A stretch of DNA of 32,977 bases from Brevundimonas sp. (GTDB taxonomy: Bacteria; Pseudomonadota; Alphaproteobacteria; Caulobacterales; Caulobacteraceae), in NCBI RefSeq assembly GCF_016463485.1, contig NZ_JAEMRD010000023.1, positions 1-32,977 of the forward strand, read 5' to 3'. The notes below the pieces were generated by a model, which had not been told where the DNA came from, did no database searches, and saw only the letters and a list, made by a program, of their open reading frames with translations. The stretch's first letter is position 1. Every line of letters begins with the position of its first letter. This document shows positions 20,271 through 31,643 of this stretch, in pieces. Both the position numbers and the translations under genes were made by a program.

Positions 20271-20295
20271 GGAACAGGGGCCGAAGCTGCGGGTT
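20271..20295 (+). promoter_or_regulatory. EcfG-like promoter before small basic ORF
   Basis: GGAAC (20271-20275), a 16-nt spacer and GGTT (20292-20295) differ by one base from the EcfG/SigT consensus GGAAC-N16/17-CGTT. The spacing to the AGGAG ribosome binding site (about 17 nt) fits the small ORF that follows. Confidence 0.45.
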
Positions 20296-20322
20296 GTCCG
20301 TTCCGACGCCAGGAGCCCTGAA

Positions 20323-20538
20323 ATGATCAGAACCCCGAAGAATTCAAAGGACCGCCGCCATCCGGTGGGTCGGGGTCGGTCGTCAGCCGGGGAGGCGACC
20401 CCTGTCAGCCGCCGTGATCCACTCAGGAATGCTGAACAGGGCCAGCCGGGTGATGCGGAGCCGAACCCCGAACCCATGAGCCGCTACGGCGATCTGTGGC
20501 GCAACATGACGGCCCGGTGGCGGGTCCATCAGCGCTGA
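20323..20538 (+). CDS. Small basic hypothetical protein
   Basis: This gene encodes 71 residues, very polar and rich in Arg, Pro and Ser, ending in SRYGDLWRNMTARWRVHQR. It has AGGAG 7 nt before the ATG and an EcfG-like promoter about 28 nt upstream. It follows nadC on the same strand after 66 nt. The N-terminal two thirds look disordered and the C-terminus could form a basic amphipathic helix. No family is recognised. High-GC DNA yields many chance ORFs, so the case rests on the two upstream signals. Confidence 0.45.
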   Translation: MIRTPKNSKDRRHPVGRGRSSAGEATPVSRRDPLRNAEQGQPGDAEPNPEPMSRYGDLWRNMTARWRVHQR

Positions 20539-20555
20539 CGGCCGGCCGAAGGCGA

Positions 20556-21635
20556 TCAGGCCGAGGGCGCGGCGGTCGGGGCCAGGGCGGCCGAGGCACC
20601 GGGAGCCGGCGCTATCGGTGCAGGGACGACCTCGATGCGGGGCTCGGGAGCCGGGATCGCAGCCTCGGGCGCAGCGCGGTTTTCCTGGCCCAGCAGCGCC
20701 TGATAGGCCACGGCCTGTCCGACCTGACGTGCGGTGTCGGCGGGGTTCAGGCTGGCCTGCATCAGTTGTGAACGATCCCCGGCCATCGACGGGCGGGCGG
20801 CATAGCTGAAGGCCGCGCTGGAGCCAGAACGACCACCGAAGCGATAGAACAGGTGCTGGCCGACCTGGCTGACCCGGATCAGAGAGTTGCGCCAGCCGGG
20901 CGAAACGCCGGTGGTGTGGAAATGGGTCGCGTTGCCGACGGCGGCGTAGACGGCGCCGGAGAGGGCCTTGGACGCCACGTCGCGGGCGCGGTTCCAGGCC
21001 GCCGGATTGACACGGGCGCGCATCGATCCGTCACAGGTGAAGCTGAACTGGCAACCGGTGCGACGACCGGCACCCTGAAAGACGACGCCACAGACGCTGT
21101 TGGGGAAGGCGGGATGGCGGGCGCGGTTGAGGACGACCTGGGCCACGGCCTGCATGCCGTCCGCACCCTCGCCTCGCGCTTCGTAATAGGCGGCCTGGGT
21201 CAGGCATTCGAGATCGCGCGAGGCGTCCAGCGCATTGCCGAGTCGGAACGGGCGGGCGGCGTCGGTGGTCAGGCTGACGCGGCGCAGAGCGGTCTCGGCG
21301 GGTACACCGCGAAGCTGTTCCAGGCGGGCGGTCAGAAGCGCGGCCTGGCGGTCACGCTGGGCGGCACCGGCGACGGTATAGGGATCGTGGCGGCGCGCGA
21401 TCGTCAGGGCGCTGTCGTCCAGGCCCCCAGCGGCGGCGGCCAGGGCCTCTTCGGTGAAGCCGGCGGAGGTGGCACCGTCCAGGCGCTCGGCCTGGGCCCG
21501 GATCGTCGTCGATTTTGCCACCGACCCGCCCAGATAGGCGCACCCGATCACAAGACCCATCAAGGCTCCGAACAGCGCCGCCGCGGTCGCCGGCCGGATT
21601 CTGGCCTTGCGATCGAAGGGTGCGTCGGTCAGCAC
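20556..21635 (-). CDS. SleB-type cell wall hydrolase (paralogue 1)
   Basis: This is a predicted periplasmic peptidoglycan hydrolase with a Hydrolase_2/SleB domain. The protein has 359 residues from GTG at 21635, with AGGA 7 nt upstream; the longer track start is unsupported. One N-terminal membrane segment (AALFGALMGLVIGCAYLGG) follows a short basic N-terminus. The SleB domain is at about residues 140-270: CLTQAAYYEARGEGADGMQAVAQVVLNRARHPAFPNSVCGVVFQG, then CQFSFTCDG and THFHTTGVSPGW. The Glu in YYEA is the likely catalytic residue. The C-terminal tail is Ala/Pro-rich. A close paralogue lies at 27832-29001. In SleB proteins the domain lyses spore cortex; here it presumably remodels the wall. 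Confidence 0.88.
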   Translation of the reverse strand: MLTDAPFDRKARIRPATAAALFGALMGLVIGCAYLGGSVAKSTTIRAQAERLDGATSAGFTEEALAAAAGGLDDSALTIARRHDPYTVAGAAQRDRQAALLTARLEQLRGVPAETALRRVSLTTDAARPFRLGNALDASRDLECLTQAAYYEARGEGADGMQAVAQVVLNRARHPAFPNSVCGVVFQGAGRRTGCQFSFTCDGSMRARVNPAAWNRARDVASKALSGAVYAAVGNATHFHTTGVSPGWRNSLIRVSQVGQHLFYRFGGRSGSSAAFSYAARPSMAGDRSQLMQASLNPADTARQVGQAVAYQALLGQENRAAPEAAIPAPEPRIEVVPAPIAPAPGASAALAPTAAPSA

Positions 21636-22043
21636 GGATGGGTCCTGAAACAAAGGCGTCGTCCTGTTCAGCAGGGCGAGAAACGCAGCCCCTGGGCAGA
21701 TCACGCGAAGCCAAGGCACGAGCCCCGGACACGCGGAAACTCGACGATCAGCGTTAGGGCCGACCGACGAGGCCGCGCCTTTAGCCATCCGTTTATGGCC
21801 TCAATGTGTTTGATTCGCAAGGAAGGGGTGCGGCGCAGCAATTTCGCGTCCCATCAGTGCATCCGGTCTCGGACGTTCGATACGGCCAGAGTGAATGCAT
21901 CAGTCCGTATGCCGGATACTGTATTGGAACTGCTCTGATCAACTCAGCGCGACGCCATGGATCGGATAATCAACTCTCGCCGTCCCGATATGTTGTCTTC
22001 GGCCGTTGGAGCAGGGGGCAGGTTGCTGTGGCTTTCGGGCGAC
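21636..22043. other. Gene-free stretch, nothing recognised
   Basis: About 400 nt between the minus-strand SleB gene and the lipoprotein promoter. The part around 21790-21990 is less GC-rich than its surroundings. Open frames here have no ribosome binding site and no family resemblance. No tRNA, terminator or repeat was seen. It presumably contains the SleB promoter. Confidence 0.5.
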
Positions 22044-22068
22044 GGAACCGTCTCTGGAACGCCACGTT
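22044..22068 (+). promoter_or_regulatory. EcfG/SigT-type promoter (perfect) before lipoprotein gene
   Basis: GGAAC (22044-22048), a 16-nt spacer and CGTT (22065-22068) match the alphaproteobacterial general stress sigma factor consensus exactly. The start codon lies 28 nt downstream, leaving room for a short leader and the GGGAGA ribosome binding site. Confidence 0.75.
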
Positions 22069-22096
22069 CAAGCGGGACCATTCAGGGAGACCCTCC

Positions 22097-22282
22097 ATGC
22101 AACGTCCCATCCTGTACGCCACACTCTTCGCCGGCGCCGCCGTGCTCGCCGCCTGTGGCCATACGATCGAACAGAAGGCCGCGACCGGAGCGGTGGCCGG
22201 GGCCGTCGTGGGCGGGCCGGTCGGGGCGGCCGTCGGCGGTGCCGCCGGAGCCGCCGTCGGGCAGGCCCAGAAGCCCCACTGA
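22097..22282 (+). CDS. Small glycine-zipper lipoprotein
   Basis: This gene encodes 61 residues, with GGGAGA 7 nt before the ATG; the track start at 21806 is spurious. The lipoprotein signal (MQRPILYATLFAGAAVLAAC) ends in an LAAC lipobox. The mature part is HTIEQKAATGAVAGAVVG and repeated GxxxG/AxxxG units (GGPVGAAVGGAAGAAVG), a glycine zipper that forms tightly packed helices in membranes. It resembles small osmotically or stress-inducible lipoproteins in size and layout. A perfect EcfG-type promoter precedes it. The molecular role is unknown. Confidence 0.8.
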   Translation: MQRPILYATLFAGAAVLAACGHTIEQKAATGAVAGAVVGGPVGAAVGGAAGAAVGQAQKPH

Positions 22283-22535
22283 CCGCGAGCCCTTCAAATT
22301 GGGCGAACGGTGCCCATATGGGTCAAGGCCGTCGATCAGGGCGTGCTTTCGCGATGACGGCCGGCCTCATAGGGGCCCGACTTGTCGTTTAGCGGACGGC
22401 AAACCTTGATTTTTGGCCCGGTTTCCGCTTTGCCAGCGCCCCGGGCCGTGTGAGCCACGCCTGACACCCTTTGCGATCCGCCGCATCCGCCGCCGGTCGC
22501 TCCATTGATCTGACCAAGGACGCCCGACCCCACGC

Positions 22536-22895
22536 ATGAGAGACCTCAAACAAACCGGCTTCAGCGATCGCATCAGCACCCAGCAGGAGGCCAAGAAGGC
22601 CCTTCTGGCCAAGTTCAAGCCGAAGCCCGCCGCGCCCGACCCCGAATTCGAGAAGCTTGCGCTCAAGCGTGCCGAAGAAAAGGAAGCGCTTCGTCAGCAG
22701 CACGAACTGGCAAAGGCCGAGCAGCGCCGCGAGAAGGCGGAAAAGGAAGCTGCGCGACTGGCTGCCGAGGCCGCGTCCCAGGAAGCGGTCGATGCCGAGA
22801 AGCGCGCCGCCCGCAAGGAACGCAAGCAACTGACCAAGGAAGAACAGAAGGCCGCCCGCGACGCCCGCTACGCCGCCCGCAAGGCGCGTCGCTAG
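22536..22895 (+). CDS. DUF6481 family protein
   Basis: The protein has 119 residues and is almost entirely charged and alpha-helical. It begins MRDLKQTGFSDRISTQQEAKKALLAKFKPKP, which matches the DUF6481 N-terminal pattern (GFSDRL...AKKALLEKF). A long Lys/Glu/Ala/Arg coiled coil follows, ending in KARR. The composition and the basic C-terminus suggest a cytoplasmic protein that may bind RNA or ribosomes, but this is unproven. The gene stands alone, with a strong terminator directly downstream. The 253-nt stretch upstream shows no other gene. Confidence 0.82.
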   Translation: MRDLKQTGFSDRISTQQEAKKALLAKFKPKPAAPDPEFEKLALKRAEEKEALRQQHELAKAEQRREKAEKEAARLAAEAASQEAVDAEKRAARKERKQLTKEEQKAARDARYAARKARR

Positions 22896-22920
22896 ACCGA
22901 ATTGAGCGCAGATCCTTCGA

Positions 22921-22949
22921 GCCCGCCGCGACGACGCGGCGGGCTTTTT
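22921..22949 (+). terminator. Intrinsic terminator after DUF6481 gene
   Basis: GCCCGCCGCG (22921-22930) pairs perfectly with CGCGGCGGGC (22935-22944) around ACGA, followed by five Ts. It separates the gene from the convergent hybrid kinase, whose stop lies 6 nt beyond. Confidence 0.9.
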
Positions 22950-22954
22950 CGTGC

Positions 22955-25900
22955 CTATCCGGCCGACGAGTCCTCGCCACGTGCCAGCAGATCGCCCAGC
23001 GCCTCGCGCAACTGCTCGCTGGAGTAGGGTTTCCTCAGGAAGGGCCAGGGCGCGTCGGCCAGGGCCTCGTCGACGTCGTCACCGGCATAGCCTGACGTCA
23101 GCAGGATCGGCAGGCCAGGGTGCCGCTCGCCGCACGACCGGGCCAGCTCGATCCCCGTCATGCCGCCGGGCATGACCACGTCCGACACCATCACGTCGAA
23201 GCGACCCTGATCCAGTACCTGTAGCGCATCCGGGCCCGTCTCGACCGCTTCGACCACAAAGCCGAGCCCGGTCAGCAAATCGACGGCGATGGCCGAGACG
23301 TTCAGGTCGTCCTCGACCAGCAACAGCCGCGTCCCCGGAGCGATGACGCCGGGTCCCACGACCTCTTCCTCGCTGGCCAGGCTGTCGGTCGGGTCGAGTG
23401 GAGGCAGATACAGATGGATCTCGGCGCCCTTGCCCGGCGCGGAGATCACCTTGGCGGCCCCGCCGCTCTGGCGTGCGAACCCATAGACCTGGCTGAGACC
23501 CAGGCCCGTGCCCTTGCCGATCGCCTTGGTGGTGAAGAAGGGTTCGAACACCCTGACCAGGGTATCGGCGTCCATGCCCGCCCCGTTGTCGGCGACGGTG
23601 ACGCAGACGTACTCGCCGGGCGCGAGGTCCATAACCTCGCCCGGCTCGACCTGGCAGCGCAGAGTCTGGACCGTGATCCGGCCCTTGTGGCCCGGCTTGT
23701 CGCCCATGCGGGCCACGACGGCGTCGCGGGCGTTGACCAGCAGGTTGATCAGGGCCGCCTCGAACTGGGACGGATCGACATTGACCCGCGCCCCGCCGCG
23801 ACGAAGCTTGAAGCGCAGGTCGATGGTCTCGCCGACCGCGCGGCGCAGAAGGGGCTCGCCTTCCTGGATCTGGGCGTTCAGGTCGATCGCCTGGGGGCGC
23901 AGGGCCTGGCGACGCGAGAAGGCCAGAAGCTGGTGGGTCAGACCCTCGCCGCGCCGGGCGGCGGCCAGGGCTGCCTCGCCCAGCTTCTTGCGCCGGGCCG
24001 CGTCGTCGGGCGAGCGCAACATCATGTCCAGCGCTCCGATGACGACGGTCAGCAGGTTGTTGAAGTCGTGGGCCACGCCGCCGGTCAGACGACCCACCGC
24101 CTCCATCCGCTGGGCGTGCATCAGGTCGGCCTCGGCCTTGGCCTTTTCGGCGAGGGCTTCGCCGACGCGTTCCTCGAGCAGTTCGTTGATGCGTTTCAGG
24201 TCGTCCTCGGCCCGACGGGCCTCGGTCACATCCAGACTGGCACCGACATAGCCCTGGAACACGCCGGAGGCGTCGAAGCGCGGGATGCCCTCGCTGCGCA
24301 GCCAGCGCAGCCCCTCGGTCGGGTGGATGACGCGCATGATCGCCTCGAACCGGCCGTGGGCCTTCAGAGCCGTCATGAAGGCGCGGGTGAAGGGCTCCAG
24401 ATCGTCGGGGTGGACCCGGCTCTGCCACCGCTCGCCCATCAGTTCGCCGGTATCGACCCCGAAGACGGAGGTGTAGCGCTGATTGACGAAGACGATCCGG
24501 GTGTCGGCGTCGGTCATCCAGATGAACACCGGCGCGCTGTCGGCGACGGTGCGGAACCGGGCCTCGGATTCGCTGATCCGGTGCTCGGCGTCGATGCGGG
24601 CGGTCTCGTCGCGCAGGGTCAGGACCGCGCCGATGTGAGTACCATCCGGGCCGGTCACGGGGCGTGCGTTGCCGACGGCGATGACCTCGGTGCCGTCAGG
24701 GCGGCGGATGCGCCAGCGGGCGTCGGTGACGATCTCGCCGTGCAGGACCGCGCGCGCCAGGGGCAGCTCCAGCGGCGGATAGGGCCGGCCGTCATCGGTC
24801 AGCAGATGATAGGTTTCCGAATAGGCCTCCGGCGTGACACCTACGTCCGCGACCCCGTGCAGTCGGCTGGCCGCGTCGTTGACGAAGCTGATGGTGCCCT
24901 CGCGATCGGTGACGATCACCCCCTCGCCCAACTGACCCAGGATGGCGTCGCGTTCGGCGGCCAGGGTGGCGAGGCGAGCGTTGGACTCCCGGATGTCGGT
25001 CACGTCGAACGCCACGCCGACGAAGCCGATCACCTCCCCGGCGACGCCGAACCGGGGCCGGGAGAAGGACTTCAGCCACCGGTACTGGCCGTCGTGCCTC
25101 AGATACCGGGCCTCGAGCGAGAAGGGTTCGAGCGTCGCCTCGCCGGCGAGGGATTCGGCGACCAGCCGATCCTGGTCCTCCGGATGGATGAAGCTGCGCC
25201 AGTCTGCCAGGCGCACGGTCTCGTAGGCCCCGCCCATGAAGGCGACATAGGCTTGGTTGACGAAGGCACGCGTGCGATCTTCCCGGGTCACCCAGATCAG
25301 GACGGGGGCGGTGTCGGCGACGGCGCGGAAGCGGGCCTCGCTCTCGGCCACCTCGGCCTGGGCTCGGGCGCGTTCGACCTCGGCCCAGGTGCGTTCGGCG
25401 ACGTCGTCGAGCAGGCCGAGTTCCTCGGCCGTCCAGACGCGTGGCTCTGCGCTATGGACGTTCATGAACGCGTGAAGCCGGTCACCTCGCATGAGCGGCG
25501 TCGTGGCGAAGGCGCGTATCCCGATGGCACGATAGGCGGCGGTCGTCGAAGCGGTACGCGGATCGAGATCGACGTCGTCGACAACGACCATGACGCCGGT
25601 TTGCAGTTCCTCGTCCACCTCGCCGCCGAACGTGTGGATCGGCCATTCACCGGCGCTGGTCGCCGTGCCGTCCGTCCAGTCGGGATAGAGCCGAAAGACC
25701 CCGTCGGTCCGGTCCAGTTCCCCGAACCCGGCGCGCTTGACGCCGAGGTGCTGACCCAGGGTGCGTGACGCCTCAGCCATGACGGCCTCGGTGCCGGTCA
25801 GTTGACGCAGGCGGTCGCTGAGGGCCAGCAGGAGGCTCTGGCGGCGTTCCTGGGCGGCCAGGGCGTCGAGCGCCTCGCGCTTTTCCGTGACGTCGAAGGC

Positions 25901-27058
25901 CATGCCGACATAGCCCCTGAACGCGCCGTCACCGTCGAACCGCGGATTGACCGAGACGCTGGACCAGCGCCAGGCCCCGTCATGGCGCTGGAACCGGCAC
26001 TCGAACGCATAGGGCAGATGATCCGGACGGGCCGCGCCCTGGGCCTCGGCGACCGCCGCGACGTCGTCGGGGTGGATGGTCATGCGCCACATCTGGCCCA
26101 ACAGATCCTCGGCCGGCCGACCGTAGAAGGCGACCAGGGCCTTGTTGACGAACTCGACGTCGCCGGCCTCGTCGGTCAGCCAGACCGGCGAGGGGGCGGT
26201 GTCGGCCATCAGGCGGAACCGTTCCTCGCTCTCGCGCAGGGAGGCCTCGGTCGCCTTGGCCTCGGAGATGTCGAGCACCACGGCGATGAAGCCGCGCGGC
26301 CGACCTTCGACGTCCAGCAGCCGCTGCAGACTGGTCACAGCCCAGACGACCGAGCCGTCGGGCCGCAGATAGCGTTTTTCCACCTGACCCGCGCCGCCCG
26401 CCAGGGCTGACGCCAGCAGGGCGCGCGTCGCCTCGACGTCGTCGGGATGGGTGACGTCGCGGGTGCGGATGCCGACGACATTGTCCGGTTCGAGGCCCAG
26501 CATCTCGGCGAAGCGGGCATTGGCGCTCAGGATCGCGCCGCCCATGTCGACACGGACGATGCCGGCCGCCGCCTGGTCGATCATGGCGCGCAGCTCGACC
26601 TCGGTCTCGTCGATGCGGGCATCGGCAGCCTGCTGGGCCGCCTGCACGGTCGTCAGCCGGGCCATGATCTTGCGCAGCGACGCCCCGACCCAGGTGCAGA
26701 AGATGCCGACGATGATGAAGTTGACCGTGGCGACGGCATTCAGCCGGGTCCCCATGCCGGCGTCGCCGGTGCTCAGCGCCACGATCAGCCAGCCGCCGCC
26801 GAGACAGGCGGCCGTGGCGGTCAGGCCGGCGATCCGCCCCCCGGCCAGGGCCGCCAGGATCACTCCGGGCAACAGGATGATGAAGCCGCTGATCTCCTGG
26901 TACAGGGTGCTGGCGGCATAGCGGATGGCGAGGACGGCAATCGCCCACAGCAGGCCGATCACGGCCGAGCGCCAGGCGGAAACGGGCTTCGACCTCGCGA
27001 GACGAAGCAGGCCTGCGTCCGTGTCGGCGATCCGCCTGATAAACCCGACCCAGTCCAT
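22955..27058 (-). CDS. Multi-PAS/GAF hybrid sensor histidine kinase with receiver domain
   Basis: The protein has 1367 residues. The N-terminal 130 residues hold about four membrane helices ([19 protein letters not shown] onward), resembling DUF4118/MASE-type sensor regions. Then come PAS (150-270), PAS (280-395), GAF (420-575), and three more PAS domains (about 590-710, 725-840, 855-970). Several PAS domains have the PAC-type ending ([22 protein letters not shown]). The HisKA domain carries His997 in [11 protein letters not shown]. The HATPase has [18 protein letters not shown] and [15 protein letters not shown]-terminal receiver (1244-1367) has Asp1293 (VMVSDVVMP) and Lys1343. The hybrid form implies a phosphorelay to an unknown partner. 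An exact EcfG-type promoter lies 40 nt upstream, back to back with that of dps. Confidence 0.93.
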
Positions 27059-27097
27059 TCATCCCCCGACCCGCAAGCGCGCTCGCGAGACCAACGC

Positions 27098-27123
27098 AAC
27101 GCCGGCAGTCGGTCTGCTGTTCC
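27098..27123 (-). promoter_or_regulatory. EcfG/SigT-type promoter (perfect) of hybrid kinase gene
   Basis: Read on the minus strand, GGAAC (27123-27119), a 17-nt spacer and CGTT (27101-27098) match the EcfG consensus. The kinase ATG lies 40 nt downstream, with GGGGGA just ahead of it. The -35 element is only 55 nt from that of the divergent dps promoter. Confidence 0.72.
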
Positions 27124-27177
27124 CCATGGACATCACAGTCGCTCGCGCGACTGTCGCACCCGGCCGGGCTTGGCGAT

Positions 27178-27202
27178 GGAACCGCGAATGACTACCTGCG
27201 TC
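27178..27202 (+). promoter_or_regulatory. EcfG-like promoter of dps
   Basis: GGAAC (27178-27182), a 16-nt spacer and CGTC (27199-27202) differ from consensus in the last base only. The dps ATG is 35 nt downstream, with AGGAG 5 nt ahead of it. Confidence 0.55.
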
Positions 27203-27236
27203 TGACGTTACGAAGTTTCGTCATCCAGGAGCAAGC

Positions 27237-27710
27237 ATGTCCGAAAAAATCGACACAGGCATCGGCAAGGCCGAGCGTACCGACGTGGCGGGCCACCTCA
27301 GCAAGGTGCTGGCCGACAGCTATGCCGTCTATCTGAAGACTCACGGCTATCACTGGAATTTGCGGGGGCCGGAGTTCTTCTCCCTGCACGGACTGCTGGA
27401 ACAACAGTACCGCGAAATCTGGGACGCGCTGGACACCATCGCCGAACGCATCCGTGCGCTGGGCGAACTGGCCCCCATGGGCGGATCGGCCTTCGCCAAC
27501 CTGACCTCGATCAAGGACGGCGATCCGGAGAAGGATTCGCAGGCCATGCTCAAGGAACTGGTCAAGGACAACGAGACCCTGATCGCCACGGCGCGCACCG
27601 CCCTTGAGGCCTGCGAAAAGGACGGCGACGACGTCTCGGTCGATCTGATGACCCAGCGGCTGGCGGCCCACGAAAAGGCCGCCTGGATGCTGCGCGCCTC
27701 CATCGCCTGA
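27237..27710 (+). CDS. dps: Dps family ferritin-like DNA-protection protein
   Basis: The protein has 157 residues, the usual length. Dps dodecamers oxidise and store iron and protect DNA in stress and starvation. The ferroxidase signature is present: THGYHWNLRGPEFFSLHGLLEQQY (His39, His51) followed by WDALDTIAERIRALG (Asp66, Glu70). AGGAG lies 5 nt before the ATG. A one-mismatch EcfG-type promoter lies upstream and is divergent from the hybrid kinase promoter, matching the expected stress control. The N-terminus is short and only mildly basic, so strong non-specific DNA binding is uncertain. Confidence 0.94.
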   Translation: MSEKIDTGIGKAERTDVAGHLSKVLADSYAVYLKTHGYHWNLRGPEFFSLHGLLEQQYREIWDALDTIAERIRALGELAPMGGSAFANLTSIKDGDPEKDSQAMLKELVKDNETLIATARTALEACEKDGDDVSVDLMTQRLAAHEKAAWMLRASIA

Positions 27711-27831
27711 AAGAAAGGCTGACGGATCGGGCCGCCGGACGCGTTCAACGACGCGACGGTGGCCCGAAAACCGCCGCTATGCCCGTGCAAGGGCTCTGCC
27801 CTGCCGGCGCTTACCGCCGCTGACCGGACCC

Positions 27832-29001
27832 ATGATGCCCATCGACTGGACCAGGACCAAGGCTTCCGCCCGCAGAGCCGCCACCGGCCTGCCTGCGATG
27901 CTGGCCGCCCTGGGCGTGGCGATGGCGGCAAGCTCTGCGCCCCGGCCCGAGATCGACCGCACGGCCGAGGCGGTGGCGCGGGTCACCCACGGCGACCTGT
28001 CGGACAAGGGGCTGGCGGCCCTGGCGGCGCGGCTTGATCCCTCGCAACTGGCCCAGGCCATGCGCGCCGATCCCAGCCGCCGCGACCCGGCGTTGTACGG
28101 CCTGACCCCGGGGTGGGAAAGCCTGACCCTGGCCGGCAAGCCCTCGCTGGATTTCGGACCCACCGGCCTGGACGCCCAGCGGCTGAACGCTGCCATGCCG
28201 TCGATGACGGGGGCCCTGCGCCCCGCCCTGCCGTTCGTGTTCAAGGCGGCGTCCGAAGCGGATCGCAGGCGCGCCCTGCGCTGCCTGACGCAAGGCATCT
28301 ATTATGAAGCGGCGCTGGAAAGCACCGAGGGTCAGGAAGGCGTGGCCCAGGTCATCCTGAACCGCGTCCGCGATCCAAACTATCCCGACACCATCTGCGG
28401 CGTCGTCTTCCAGGGTGCCGAGCGGACCACGGGCTGCCAGTTCAGCTTTACGTGCGACGGGGCGCTCGCCAACGCCCCCGTGGGCTGGGCCTGGGAGCGG
28501 GCCCGCAGCGTCGCCGAGCGCGCTCTGGCCGGCCATGTCGCCGCGCGTGTCGGGACGGCGACCCACTATCACGCCGACTATGTGCATCCCTGGTGGTCGC
28601 CGACCCTGGCCAAGATCACCCAGATCGGGGCGCACATCTTCTATCGCTGGAAGGGGGCTGCGGGCGAAACCGCATCCTTCGCCCAGGCCTATGCGACCCG
28701 CGAGCCGGTGATCGACGAGGCGCGGTTCTCGCGTCCCCGTCTGATGCTCGCGTCCGCCGAGACCTCGACCGACGCCGGGATCGCGGCTGGCGCGCCCGTG
28801 CTCAAGACCGTCGAGGTCGACGGCCAGACCCGCGTCGTCGGTGTCGTCAGCCTGGGCGGACGCCGTCTGCCGACCCCAGAGGAAGTCGCGGCCATCAATG
28901 CGCGGATCAAGGCCTTCGAGACGCCCGCGCCTGCGCCGCGCATCGAGGTGCCGGGGGCGGTGGCCATGGACGTCGAGGAAGTCGGCAAGCCCGCGTCTTG
29001 A
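27832..29001 (+). CDS. SleB-type cell wall hydrolase (paralogue 2)
   Basis: The protein has 389 residues with a basic N-terminus and a hydrophobic segment (LPAMLAALGVAMAASSA) that could be a signal peptide or anchor. The SleB/Hydrolase_2 domain lies at about 150-280: CLTQGIYYEAALESTEGQEGVAQVILNRVRDPNYPDTICGVVFQG, CQFSFTCDG and GTATHYHADYVHPWWSP. The catalytic Glu in YYEA is kept. It is clearly homologous to the protein encoded at 20556-21635 but differs in its N-terminal third and in the C-terminal tail (RLPTPEEVAAINARIKAFE). It follows dps by 121 nt on the same strand with no terminator between, so stress-linked co-transcription is possible. Confidence 0.88.
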   Translation: MMPIDWTRTKASARRAATGLPAMLAALGVAMAASSAPRPEIDRTAEAVARVTHGDLSDKGLAALAARLDPSQLAQAMRADPSRRDPALYGLTPGWESLTLAGKPSLDFGPTGLDAQRLNAAMPSMTGALRPALPFVFKAASEADRRRALRCLTQGIYYEAALESTEGQEGVAQVILNRVRDPNYPDTICGVVFQGAERTTGCQFSFTCDGALANAPVGWAWERARSVAERALAGHVAARVGTATHYHADYVHPWWSPTLAKITQIGAHIFYRWKGAAGETASFAQAYATREPVIDEARFSRPRLMLASAETSTDAGIAAGAPVLKTVEVDGQTRVVGVVSLGGRRLPTPEEVAAINARIKAFETPAPAPRIEVPGAVAMDVEEVGKPAS

Positions 29002-29054
29002 GCCGGTGATTGCCGGGTCGGGTTGCCAATATGGACAGAGAGTCGCATCTGTTC

Positions 29055-29079
29055 GGAACGAAGGCGCGTTCGCCCGGTT
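29055..29079 (+). promoter_or_regulatory. EcfG-like promoter of GAF-PAS kinase gene
   Basis: GGAAC (29055-29059), a 16-nt spacer and GGTT (29076-29079) differ from the EcfG consensus by one base. If used, transcription would begin near 29086, favouring the GTG at 29097 as the start codon over the ATG at 29031. Confidence 0.4.
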
Positions 29080-29096
29080 ATATTCGGGTGCCCACC

Positions 29097-30653
29097 GTGA
29101 CGCTTGATCAATCCGCGCCGATCTGGACCGAAGCCGACCGCGTCTCGGCCCTTCGCGGCTACGGGATTCTCGACACCCCGCGAGAGGAGGCGTTCGACAA
29201 GGTCGTCCGTCTGATCGCCAGGGTGTTCGACGCCCCGATCGCGGTGGTCAATCTGATCGACACCGACCGGCAGTGGTTCAAGGCCGAGACCGGGCTGGGC
29301 GTGCGCGAGACCCCGCTGGAGACTTCGTTCTGTGCCCACGCCCTGCTCCAGCAGGACGGAATGGTCGTGCCCGATGCGACCGAGGATCCCCGTTTCCAGT
29401 GCAATCCGCTGGTGACCGGCGAGATGGGCCTGCGCTTCTATGCCGGACGGTTGTTGAAGACGCCGGAGGGCCTGCCGCTGGGGACGCTCTGCGTGCTCGA
29501 CGACAAGGCGCGGCCCGAGGGGATCACCGACCTTCAGTCCGAGACCCTGGATGTCCTGGCCGACCTGGTCATGGAACAGATCACCCTGCGCCGGTCCGAG
29601 CGCGAACGGGCCATCGGCGAGGCGGCGCTCGATGTCAGCGAGGCCCGGTTCGCGGCCATCGCCGACTCCATGCCCCAGATGGTCTGGTCGACCCGGCCGG
29701 ACGGCTTTCACGACTACTATAATGCCCGCTGGTACGAGTTTACCGGCATGCCCGCCGGCTCGACCGACGGCGAGGGCTGGAACGGCATGTTCCACCCGGA
29801 GGACCAGGACCGCGCCTGGACCCTGTGGCAGCATTGTCTGGCGACCGGCGACCACTACGAGATTGAATACCGGCTGAGACGACATGACGGCGTGTATCGC
29901 TGGACCCTGGGCCGGGCCATGCCGATCCGGCACGCGGATGGAACCATCGTGCGCTGGTTCGGCACCTGTACCGACATCGACGACCTGAAGCGGATGGAGC
30001 AGGGCAAGGAACTGCTCAGCCAGGAACTCAGCCACCGCATCAAGAACATTTTCGCTGTCGTCTCGGCCCTGATCGCCCTGTCTGCGCGCGAATATCCCGA
30101 GGCCAAGGCCTTTGCCGTCGCCGTCCGCGACCGCATCGCCGCCCTGGCGCGCGCGCACGAGTTCGTCCGGCCCCACACCGAGGTGTCGCGCCCCACGGTC
30201 GGGGCCATGACCCTGCACGCCTTCCTGGAGGCCCTGTTCCGGCCCTATGCGGCCGATGACGGTTCTGCGCGGGTGCGGCTGAGCGGCGACGACGCCCGGT
30301 TCGACGATCAGGCGGCGACGTCGGTGGCGCTGCTGTTCCACGAACTGGCCACCAATGCCGCCAAATACGGGGCCCTGTCCCTGCCGGGCGGCCATGTGGA
30401 CCTGGAGACGCGGCTGATCGACGACCGGTTCGTCCTGACCTGGAGCGAGCGAGGCGGTCCCCCCGTTACCGGCAAGCCGGAACGCAGCGGCTTCGGATCA
30501 TCCCTGGCGACCGTGTCGGTCGAAGGTCAGTTGGGCGGTCGGCTGGAACGAAACTGGGCGCCTGGGGGTTTGATCGTGGTGGCGGATCTGCCTTCCACCG
30601 CGCTGTCGCGACGCAAGGCTGCGGAAATCATCTCGCAGATGCGAACAGCGTGA
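29097..30653 (+). CDS. GAF-PAS HWE-family sensor histidine kinase
   Basis: The protein has 518 residues from GTG at 29097 (MTLDQSAPIWTEADRVSALRGYGILDTPREEAFD), the usual N-terminus of such kinases. ATG 29031 would add 22 residues and cannot be excluded. The domains are GAF (about 30-165), PAS (182-300; MVWSTRPDGFHDYYNARWYEFTG) and HWE kinase. The phospho-acceptor is His313 (LSHRIKNIFAVVSALIALSAR). The HATPase has FHELATNAAKYGALS and the WSERGG motif that defines the HWE class. No membrane segment is present, so it is cytoplasmic. HWE kinases often feed single-domain regulators or the PhyR general stress switch. The next gene is a single-domain regulator, 58 nt downstream. Confidence 0.92.
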   Translation: MTLDQSAPIWTEADRVSALRGYGILDTPREEAFDKVVRLIARVFDAPIAVVNLIDTDRQWFKAETGLGVRETPLETSFCAHALLQQDGMVVPDATEDPRFQCNPLVTGEMGLRFYAGRLLKTPEGLPLGTLCVLDDKARPEGITDLQSETLDVLADLVMEQITLRRSERERAIGEAALDVSEARFAAIADSMPQMVWSTRPDGFHDYYNARWYEFTGMPAGSTDGEGWNGMFHPEDQDRAWTLWQHCLATGDHYEIEYRLRRHDGVYRWTLGRAMPIRHADGTIVRWFGTCTDIDDLKRMEQGKELLSQELSHRIKNIFAVVSALIALSAREYPEAKAFAVAVRDRIAALARAHEFVRPHTEVSRPTVGAMTLHAFLEALFRPYAADDGSARVRLSGDDARFDDQAATSVALLFHELATNAAKYGALSLPGGHVDLETRLIDDRFVLTWSERGGPPVTGKPERSGFGSSLATVSVEGQLGGRLERNWAPGGLIVVADLPSTALSRRKAAEIISQMRTA

Positions 30654-30711
30654 AACCCGCAAGGGCTTTCCGCGTTATTTCACGGAACGTCGATCAAGCA
30701 ACCCGGCTGTA

Positions 30712-31119
30712 ATGACTGCGCGCATTCTCATCATCGAAGACGAGGCCCTGGTGGCCATGGAACTTCGGTTTGTGCTGGAGGACCTCGGTTACGAGGTTGT
30801 CGGCAGCGCGGCTGATGCACGCACGGCGCGCAACCTCGCCAAGCAGGCTGCTGTCGATCTGGCGCTGGTCGATATCCACCTGTCGGATGGGCCCACCGGC
30901 GTCGACCTTGGCCGCGACCTGGCCCAGGAAGACGGCGTGACCGTCGTTTATATGACCGCAAACCCCGGCATGGTCCGCAATGGCGTGGCCGGCACGATCG
31001 GCGTCCTTTCCAAACCTTCGGACGAGCGCGCGGTCGAGCGGACCGTCGCCTACGCTCTGGGCCGGCGTCAGGGCGTGCCTGTCGAATACGCGCCGCCTGA
31101 ACTGCAGTTGTTCGCGTGA
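30712..31119 (+). CDS. Single-domain response regulator
   Basis: The protein has 135 residues: one receiver domain and a 15-residue tail, with no output domain. The acidic pocket is Glu9-Asp10, the phospho-acceptor Asp54 (LALVDIHLSD), the Thr switch Thr82 (VVYMTANPG) and Lys101 (LSKPSDE). Helix 1 (EALVAMELRFVLEDLGYEVVG) is typical of regulators paired with HWE kinases in alphaproteobacteria. It presumably passes phosphate from the upstream kinase to a partner or modulates another regulator by binding. Its stop overlaps the GTG start of the BLUF gene (GTGA), so the two proteins are made together. Confidence 0.9.
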   Translation: MTARILIIEDEALVAMELRFVLEDLGYEVVGSAADARTARNLAKQAAVDLALVDIHLSDGPTGVDLGRDLAQEDGVTVVYMTANPGMVRNGVAGTIGVLSKPSDERAVERTVAYALGRRQGVPVEYAPPELQLFA

Positions 31120-31643
31120 CAGTCAAACTGTCCATCGTCGGCCTGTCCGACAACGGCGCGCTGGCCCAGCTCGTCTATCGCAGCACCAGCGTCACCGGCG
31201 TGGCCAGCGCGCTGGAAATGTCCGATATCCTGGCCGAGGCCCGTCCGCGCAATGCCCAGCTGGGTATCACGGGGATCCTGACGGCCGTCGACGGTATGTT
31301 CGTGCAACTGATCGAAGGGCCGGTCGCGAGCATCGAAGGCCTTCTGGTCCGCTTGGCCCAGGACCGACGCCACACGGATCTCGAGGTTGTGGACCGTCGC
31401 CTCACCGATGATCGGGCCTTCGGCGACTGGGACATGGTCAGCCCCCGCTTTGCGCCCGCAGAGCTGACCGCCCTGTCTAGGCTGCTGGCGAGCGGGGCCC
31501 CGTCGCTGGACGACCTGATCGAGGTCCTGTCCCGGGCCTGCAAGCGCCAGGAGGCCGTCCTGGAAGGCCGCGACCGCCCGCTCGCCCAGACCGCGCTGGC
31601 CGATACGCGCTTTCTGGTCGACAGGGTCGAACCCGACATCTGA
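31116..31643 (+). CDS. BLUF-domain blue-light photoreceptor
   Basis: The protein has 175 residues from GTG at 31116, overlapping the regulator stop. The FAD-binding BLUF domain is at about 17-110. The key residues align with AppA almost number for number: Tyr21 (LVYRS), Asn46 (RPRNAQLGITG), Gln64 (MFVQLIEGP), Trp105 and Met107 (GDWDM). All residues needed for the light-driven hydrogen-bond switch are present. The C-terminal 65 residues are helical with no known output domain, so it is a short BLUF protein that must signal through a partner. Coupling to the response regulator suggests that partner. It converges on trxB with a 6-nt gap. Confidence 0.92.
   Translation: MTVKLSIVGLSDNGALAQLVYRSTSVTGVASALEMSDILAEARPRNAQLGITGILTAVDGMFVQLIEGPVASIEGLLVRLAQDRRHTDLEVVDRRLTDDRAFGDWDMVSPRFAPAELTALSRLLASGAPSLDDLIEVLSRACKRQEAVLEGRDRPLAQTALADTRFLVDRVEPDI

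Follow-up and report, generated by a model that had tools for sequence, protein, structure and literature searches.

A conserved Brevundimonas gene block with predicted EcfG promoters and a putative bidirectional promoter between a hybrid histidine kinase and dps

Does a Brevundimonas gene block that holds two sensor histidine kinases and a DNA-protection protein belong to the EcfG (SigT) general stress regulon, or are its promoter-like motifs chance matches? A first-pass annotation of the window, by which we mean the whole analysed stretch of 32,977 nt, had marked five EcfG-type promoters, before a small basic ORF, a glycine-zipper lipoprotein, a hybrid histidine kinase, dps and an HWE kinase, and had proposed a stress-response island whose sensors are themselves in the regulon. 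From sequence comparison across the genus, we consider it probable (about 0.72) that this is a long-lived Brevundimonas neighbourhood, an EcfG-controlled sensor and protection island with a bidirectional EcfG promoter between the hybrid kinase and dps.

Motif matches and the genus background

All five sites are present in the sequence where they had been placed. The lipoprotein site is exact and stands 28 nt before the ATG at 22097; the hybrid kinase site is exact on the reverse strand (27123-27098), at 39 nt rather than the annotated 40 nt from the ATG at 27058. One mismatch each is found at 20271 (GGAAC-N16-GGTT), 27178 (GGAAC-N16-CGTC) and 29055 (GGAAC-N16-GGTT). The kinase site and the 27178 site before dps are divergent and 55 nt apart, and the window is without phyR, nepR or ecfG, again as described. 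What the counts do not show is enrichment, either in the window or genome-wide. The window has 3 matches to GGAAC-N15-18-CGTT where 0.91 would be expected, and 3 or more turned up in 7 of 100 shuffles; a genome-wide pattern search returned 27 matches to GGAAC-N16-CGTT against 34 for the reversed pattern. A motif match alone is weak evidence, close to chance. Because these counts are unremarkable, each site was examined for retention in orthologues, and it is this conservation that separates the apparently real sites from chance ones.

Footprinting covered the syntenic neighbourhood across Brevundimonas, using 200-nt upstream regions with permuted motifs as control. Through the genus the gene order is mostly kept: nadC, small ORF, cell-wall hydrolase, lipoprotein, DUF6481, hybrid kinase, dps, second hydrolase, HWE kinase, response regulator, trxB. 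Some genomes are without dps, the lipoprotein block or a BLUF gene. The positive control, the promoters of phyR and nepR-ecfG at 20 PhyR loci, gave exact boxes on both strands. The EcfG profile of the genus, drawn from 36 control promoters and with a core that is invariant by construction (exact matches having been selected), has C or T at position 6 and mostly A or G just before CGTT, a stricter consensus of GGAACY...RCGTT. PhyR-type sigma-like domains were detected in 100 of 101 Brevundimonas genomes. NepR was not found in the window's own draft assembly; this is likely an assembly gap, because the closest relative (G128, kinase identity 93%) has NepR between the expected pair of EcfG sites. 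The control genes of the same region (CWH2, trxB, DUF6481 and CWH1) showed no site in a scan for an EcfG class set beforehand, in which the column-permuted controls include permutations overlapping the true motif, so that their maxima are inflated. EcfG boxes reported from Sphingopyxis include GCAAC at -35 and CATT, GGTT and TGTT at -10, and the frequent -10 boxes of the Sphingopyxis EcfG regulon that served as in vitro templates include GGTT (PMC7083833). Outside the promoter block studied, a GCAAC-N17-CGTT match of EcfG class lies on the reverse strand at 1653-1678 of the window.

Table 1. Genes and predicted promoter elements of the block (window coordinates)
Feature	Position	Strand	Basis
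Putative EcfG-class promoter of small basic ORF, GGAAC-N16-GGTT	20271..20295	+	conservation after nadC
Small basic protein, 71 aa, unknown function	20323..20538	+	tblastn orthologues
Putative EcfG promoter of lipoprotein, GGAAC-N16-CGTT	22044..22068	+	exact in orthologues; fits genus consensus
Glycine-zipper lipoprotein, 61 aa	22097..22282	+	lipobox and EQKAATGA motif
PAS/GAF hybrid histidine kinase (HisKA, HATPase, receiver), 1367 aa	22955..27058	-	Pfam
Putative EcfG promoter of hybrid kinase, GGAAC-N17-CGTT	27098..27123	-	exact in orthologues
Putative reverse-strand EcfG-class promoter facing dps, overlapping kinase site, GCAAC-N17-TGTT	27096..27121	+	both-strand reading; CGTT in closest relative
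Putative housekeeping-type dps promoter, TTGGCG-N16-CTACCT	27170..27197	+	conserved TTGG-N17-20-CTAM
dps	27237..27710	+	Pfam Ferritin; best NCBIfam match Dps, below cut-off
Possible EcfG-class promoter of HWE kinase, GGAAC-N16-GGTT	29055..29079	+	window and G128 only
GAF-PAS-HWE histidine kinase	29091..30653	+	Pfam HWE_HK; start set by one-base frame difference upstream in G128
Putative EcfG-like promoter of response regulator, GAAACC-N15-CGTT	30652..30676	+	overlaps HWE kinase stop codon
Single-domain response regulator	30712..31119	+	receiver closest to those of PhyR type

Conservation of the individual sites

Orthologues of the hybrid kinase occur across the genus, in many cases in divergent orientation to dps. 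Exact GGAAC-N16/17-CGTT precedes 27 of 28 of them (permuted motif mean 0.05, max 2); the G112 orthologue is without it. The distance from the site to the kinase start is 39-85 nt in almost all genomes. The boxes are conserved while the spacers have diverged (26 distinct among 27), as they have at the lipoprotein and small-ORF sites too, and a de novo dyad search given no motif returned the same pattern as its top dyad (26/27). Orthologues of the lipoprotein, recognised by lipobox and EQKAATGA motif in 23 genomes and matching Pfam glycine-zipper models below threshold, all carry the exact site (23/23; permuted motif mean 0.06, max 3). It matches the stricter consensus, and GGAAC-N16/17-CGTT is again the top motif of an unbiased dyad search. 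The small basic protein, which has no match in Pfam or NCBIfam, has orthologues after nadC across the genus (34-75% identity by tblastn), and GGAAC with a -10 box of at most one mismatch is found there in 19 of 24 genomes (permuted motif mean 0.32, max 6). Sixteen of the 18 sites with N16 read GGTT and two CGTT, and without a given motif the top dyad was GGAAC-N16-GGTT (16/23). The kinase and lipoprotein sites thus have the boxes and spacing of putative EcfG promoters, and the small-ORF site the GGAAC -35 box with an accepted -10 variant; from this conservation we infer EcfG recognition and actual transcription. Elsewhere in the window's genome (G000), strict EcfG sites that G128 shares are found before two further glycine-zipper lipoproteins and a helical protein of 125 aa (contigs C55, C117 and C113; L007, L139 and L137), and other conserved strict sites of this genome precede short stress-type proteins.

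An EcfG promoter for the HWE kinase is upheld in orthologues, by a site other than the one proposed. There, an EcfG-class GCAAC-N16/17-CATT follows the hydrolase stop in 34 of 43 genomes; the 29055 site occurs in the window and G128 only and is uncertain. These two genomes are without GCAAC-N16/17-CATT and have a degraded TGCCAA-N15-GCATC at the old position with GGAAC-N16-GGTT nearby, which looks like promoter turnover in the window lineage. Of 41 response regulator orthologues, 35 are preceded by NNAACC-N15/16-CGTT, and the 35 spacers all differ. This site does not have the GGAAC -35 box, being mostly GAAAC with AAC and CGTT kept, and the TGA stop of the HWE kinase, which overlaps the site, fixes its leading GA. 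Both the HWE and the response regulator motifs were found post hoc, by dyad search in the same genomes, and were not predicted beforehand. A further candidate before the response regulator, GGAAC-N17-GGTT (18/28), lies inside the kinase coding sequence and was rejected as a coding artefact. Directly after the response regulator, at 31116-31643, the window encodes a BLUF blue-light domain protein that only some relatives have.

If all five sites were chance matches in GC-rich DNA, one would expect what we see in the counts, with a genome-wide number no higher than the reversed control and a window number only mildly above shuffles, and the 27178 site before dps indeed behaves in this way. However, conservation of the lipoprotein, kinase and small-ORF sites far above permuted motifs refutes chance for these three, and as an account of the whole set it is very improbable; a chance match is still the best reading of the 27178 site, a case that shows how far a motif match by itself may mislead. 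For the HWE kinase it is also conceivable, though rather doubtful, that GCAAC-N16-CATT is read by another ECF sigma factor. Both boxes differ from the genus consensus, and the motif is confined to this gene (9 matches in 6 genomes, one per genome at the HWE locus). By contrast, both boxes are reported EcfG variants (PMC7083833), and in the window lineage GGAAC-N16-GGTT takes their place, which is what turnover inside a single regulon would produce. Of the five original sites, three are upheld, one reads as a chance match, and one is uncertain, with the look of promoter turnover; to these the comparison adds two conserved elements, the response regulator promoter and a dps-facing reading of the kinase promoter.

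The intergenic region between the hybrid kinase and dps

The EcfG promoter proposed for dps at 27178 is shared with G128 alone among orthologues, and its GGAACC falls in the spacer of a conserved TTGG-N17-20-CTAM promoter. Of 32 dps upstream regions, 26 have this promoter (shuffled mean 0.2, max 2), among them those of dps genes that are not beside the kinase. A scan of the dps set nevertheless scored 21 of 23 for the EcfG class set beforehand, and these matches are the back of the kinase promoter. That promoter is near-symmetric, GGAACG-N15-CGTTGC, and reads GCAAC-N16-CGTT on the dps strand, the copy facing dps in the window being the weaker GCAAC-N17-TGTT. Kinase sites beside dps are of EcfG class on both strands in 26 of 30 cases, against 7 of 60 other EcfG promoters (Fisher p 2.6e-12), and 28 of the 30 have G at base 6, where 55 of the 60 others have C or T. 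Three of seven kinase sites without dps also read both ways, a modest contrast with the 26 of 30 (Fisher p 0.03, with relatedness ignored). The element thus reads as a candidate bidirectional promoter in sequence, on both strands and more often than its class peers. An exact GGAAC-N17-CGTT also faces dps in G153 and G132, which belong to a different genus of the family (L151:6590 and L152:3269), and the L151 site stands upstream of a TTGGCG-type promoter. We would give even odds to the mechanism in which a few flanking bases turn the intrinsically symmetric EcfG core (AAC-N17-GTT) into a true bidirectional promoter, of which Brevundimonas would have kept one between dps and the hybrid stress kinase, which would tie a sensor and a DNA-protection protein to one and the same sigma-factor site.

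A competing account limits EcfG to the kinase, the lipoprotein and the small ORF, leaves dps to its housekeeping-type promoter alone and gives the symmetric kinase site no further function. Retention of TTGG-N17-20-CTAM at 26 of 32 dps genes, even without an adjacent kinase, favours this account, as do the inherent symmetry of the EcfG core, where few bases suffice for a chance reverse reading, and the three of seven dps-less sites that read both ways. We nonetheless regard it as rather unlikely, given that reverse readings are far commoner here than at other EcfG promoters, that an exact EcfG site faces dps in the two genomes of the other genus, and that dps has been reported under SigT control in Caulobacter (PMC5869019). 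Alternatively, the element might be the operator of a dimeric transcription factor and no sigma-factor promoter, its arms GSAACGC and GCGTTSC forming an inverted repeat about two helical turns apart. This is improbable: the element fits EcfG boxes and spacing and stands within 39-85 nt of the kinase start in almost every genome, the site of the dps-less clade loses its symmetry yet remains a perfect match to an EcfG promoter, and other copies occur at control level in 10 genomes, which is not the pattern of a regulon.

Taken together, our preferred reading is that EcfG would transcribe the small basic protein, the glycine-zipper lipoprotein and the PAS/GAF hybrid kinase; the HWE kinase with its single-domain response regulator would probably be among its targets as well. 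At the near-symmetric kinase promoter, EcfG-RNA polymerase may bind in either orientation and so also fire towards dps, which would keep its separate proximal housekeeping-type promoter. Phosphorylated PhyR would release EcfG, and transcription of the block would raise the levels of Dps, of the two sensors and of two proteins that are small or belong to the envelope. The stress-response island first proposed is thus partly supported, in an amended form: for the HWE kinase through a site other than that at 29055, and for dps through the back of the kinase promoter instead of the site at 27178.

Two further features of the region were observed. A conserved TCGCG about 12-15 nt after the kinase CGTT is present across the genus and is explained by neither promoter. 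In the dps-less clade G062, G039 and G108 (L161, L162 and L163), an exact EcfG site between the kinase and the second hydrolase faces the cell-wall hydrolase and not the kinase; G002 has no such site. Like the missing site in G112, these exceptions tell against the preferred reading.

Relation to described stress regulons

The conserved EcfG-type promoter before the hybrid kinase suggests that a sensor kinase is itself probably in the EcfG regulon. Because it is of HisKA type, whereas kinases of the general stress pathway are described as HWE or HisKA2, this kinase is more likely an output of the pathway than an input. The GGAAC and CGTT boxes with N16-17 resemble those of the EcfG/SigT regulons of Caulobacter, Sphingomonas and Sphingopyxis, and so do the kinds of target, namely small envelope proteins, signalling genes and kinases. 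Among the latter are lovK/lovR of Caulobacter (PMC3073932), an EcfG-dependent orphan hybrid kinase of Sphingomonas (PMC6599016) and an HWE kinase of Sphingopyxis (PMC7083833). Unlike these regulons as described, the genes here form a conserved block in which a hybrid HisKA kinase adjoins dps; in the literature searched, which leaves most subscription journals outside, we found no paper on such a block and no regulon study of Brevundimonas.

The HWE pair resembles LovK-LovR of Caulobacter crescentus, in which a kinase of HWE/HisKA2 type and a single-domain response regulator lie side by side under SigT control and have been proposed to feed back on the stress response (PMC5964349). By analogy, the HWE kinase and its response regulator could exert such feedback here, and we infer the same possibility for both kinases. 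Unlike LovK, the sensor here is GAF-PAS without a LOV domain (GAF, PAS and HWE_HK only by Pfam), and matches to the NCBIfam LOV-kinase and PhyK models are far below cut-off. The kinase-dps element has a counterpart in the pseudo-symmetric bidirectional promoters of Escherichia coli, where RNA polymerase binds in both orientations and drives divergent genes (PMC12825309); by comparison, the symmetry here lies in both boxes of an ECF-type promoter, and its activity is a prediction.

Regulon membership of these genes would be a new case of a known kind, and the symmetric promoter would be a new form of one if transcription confirms it. The finding would extend the general stress regulon of Brevundimonas by a set of conserved sensors, and it leads to the prediction that two divergent genes can be served from a single sigma-factor site.
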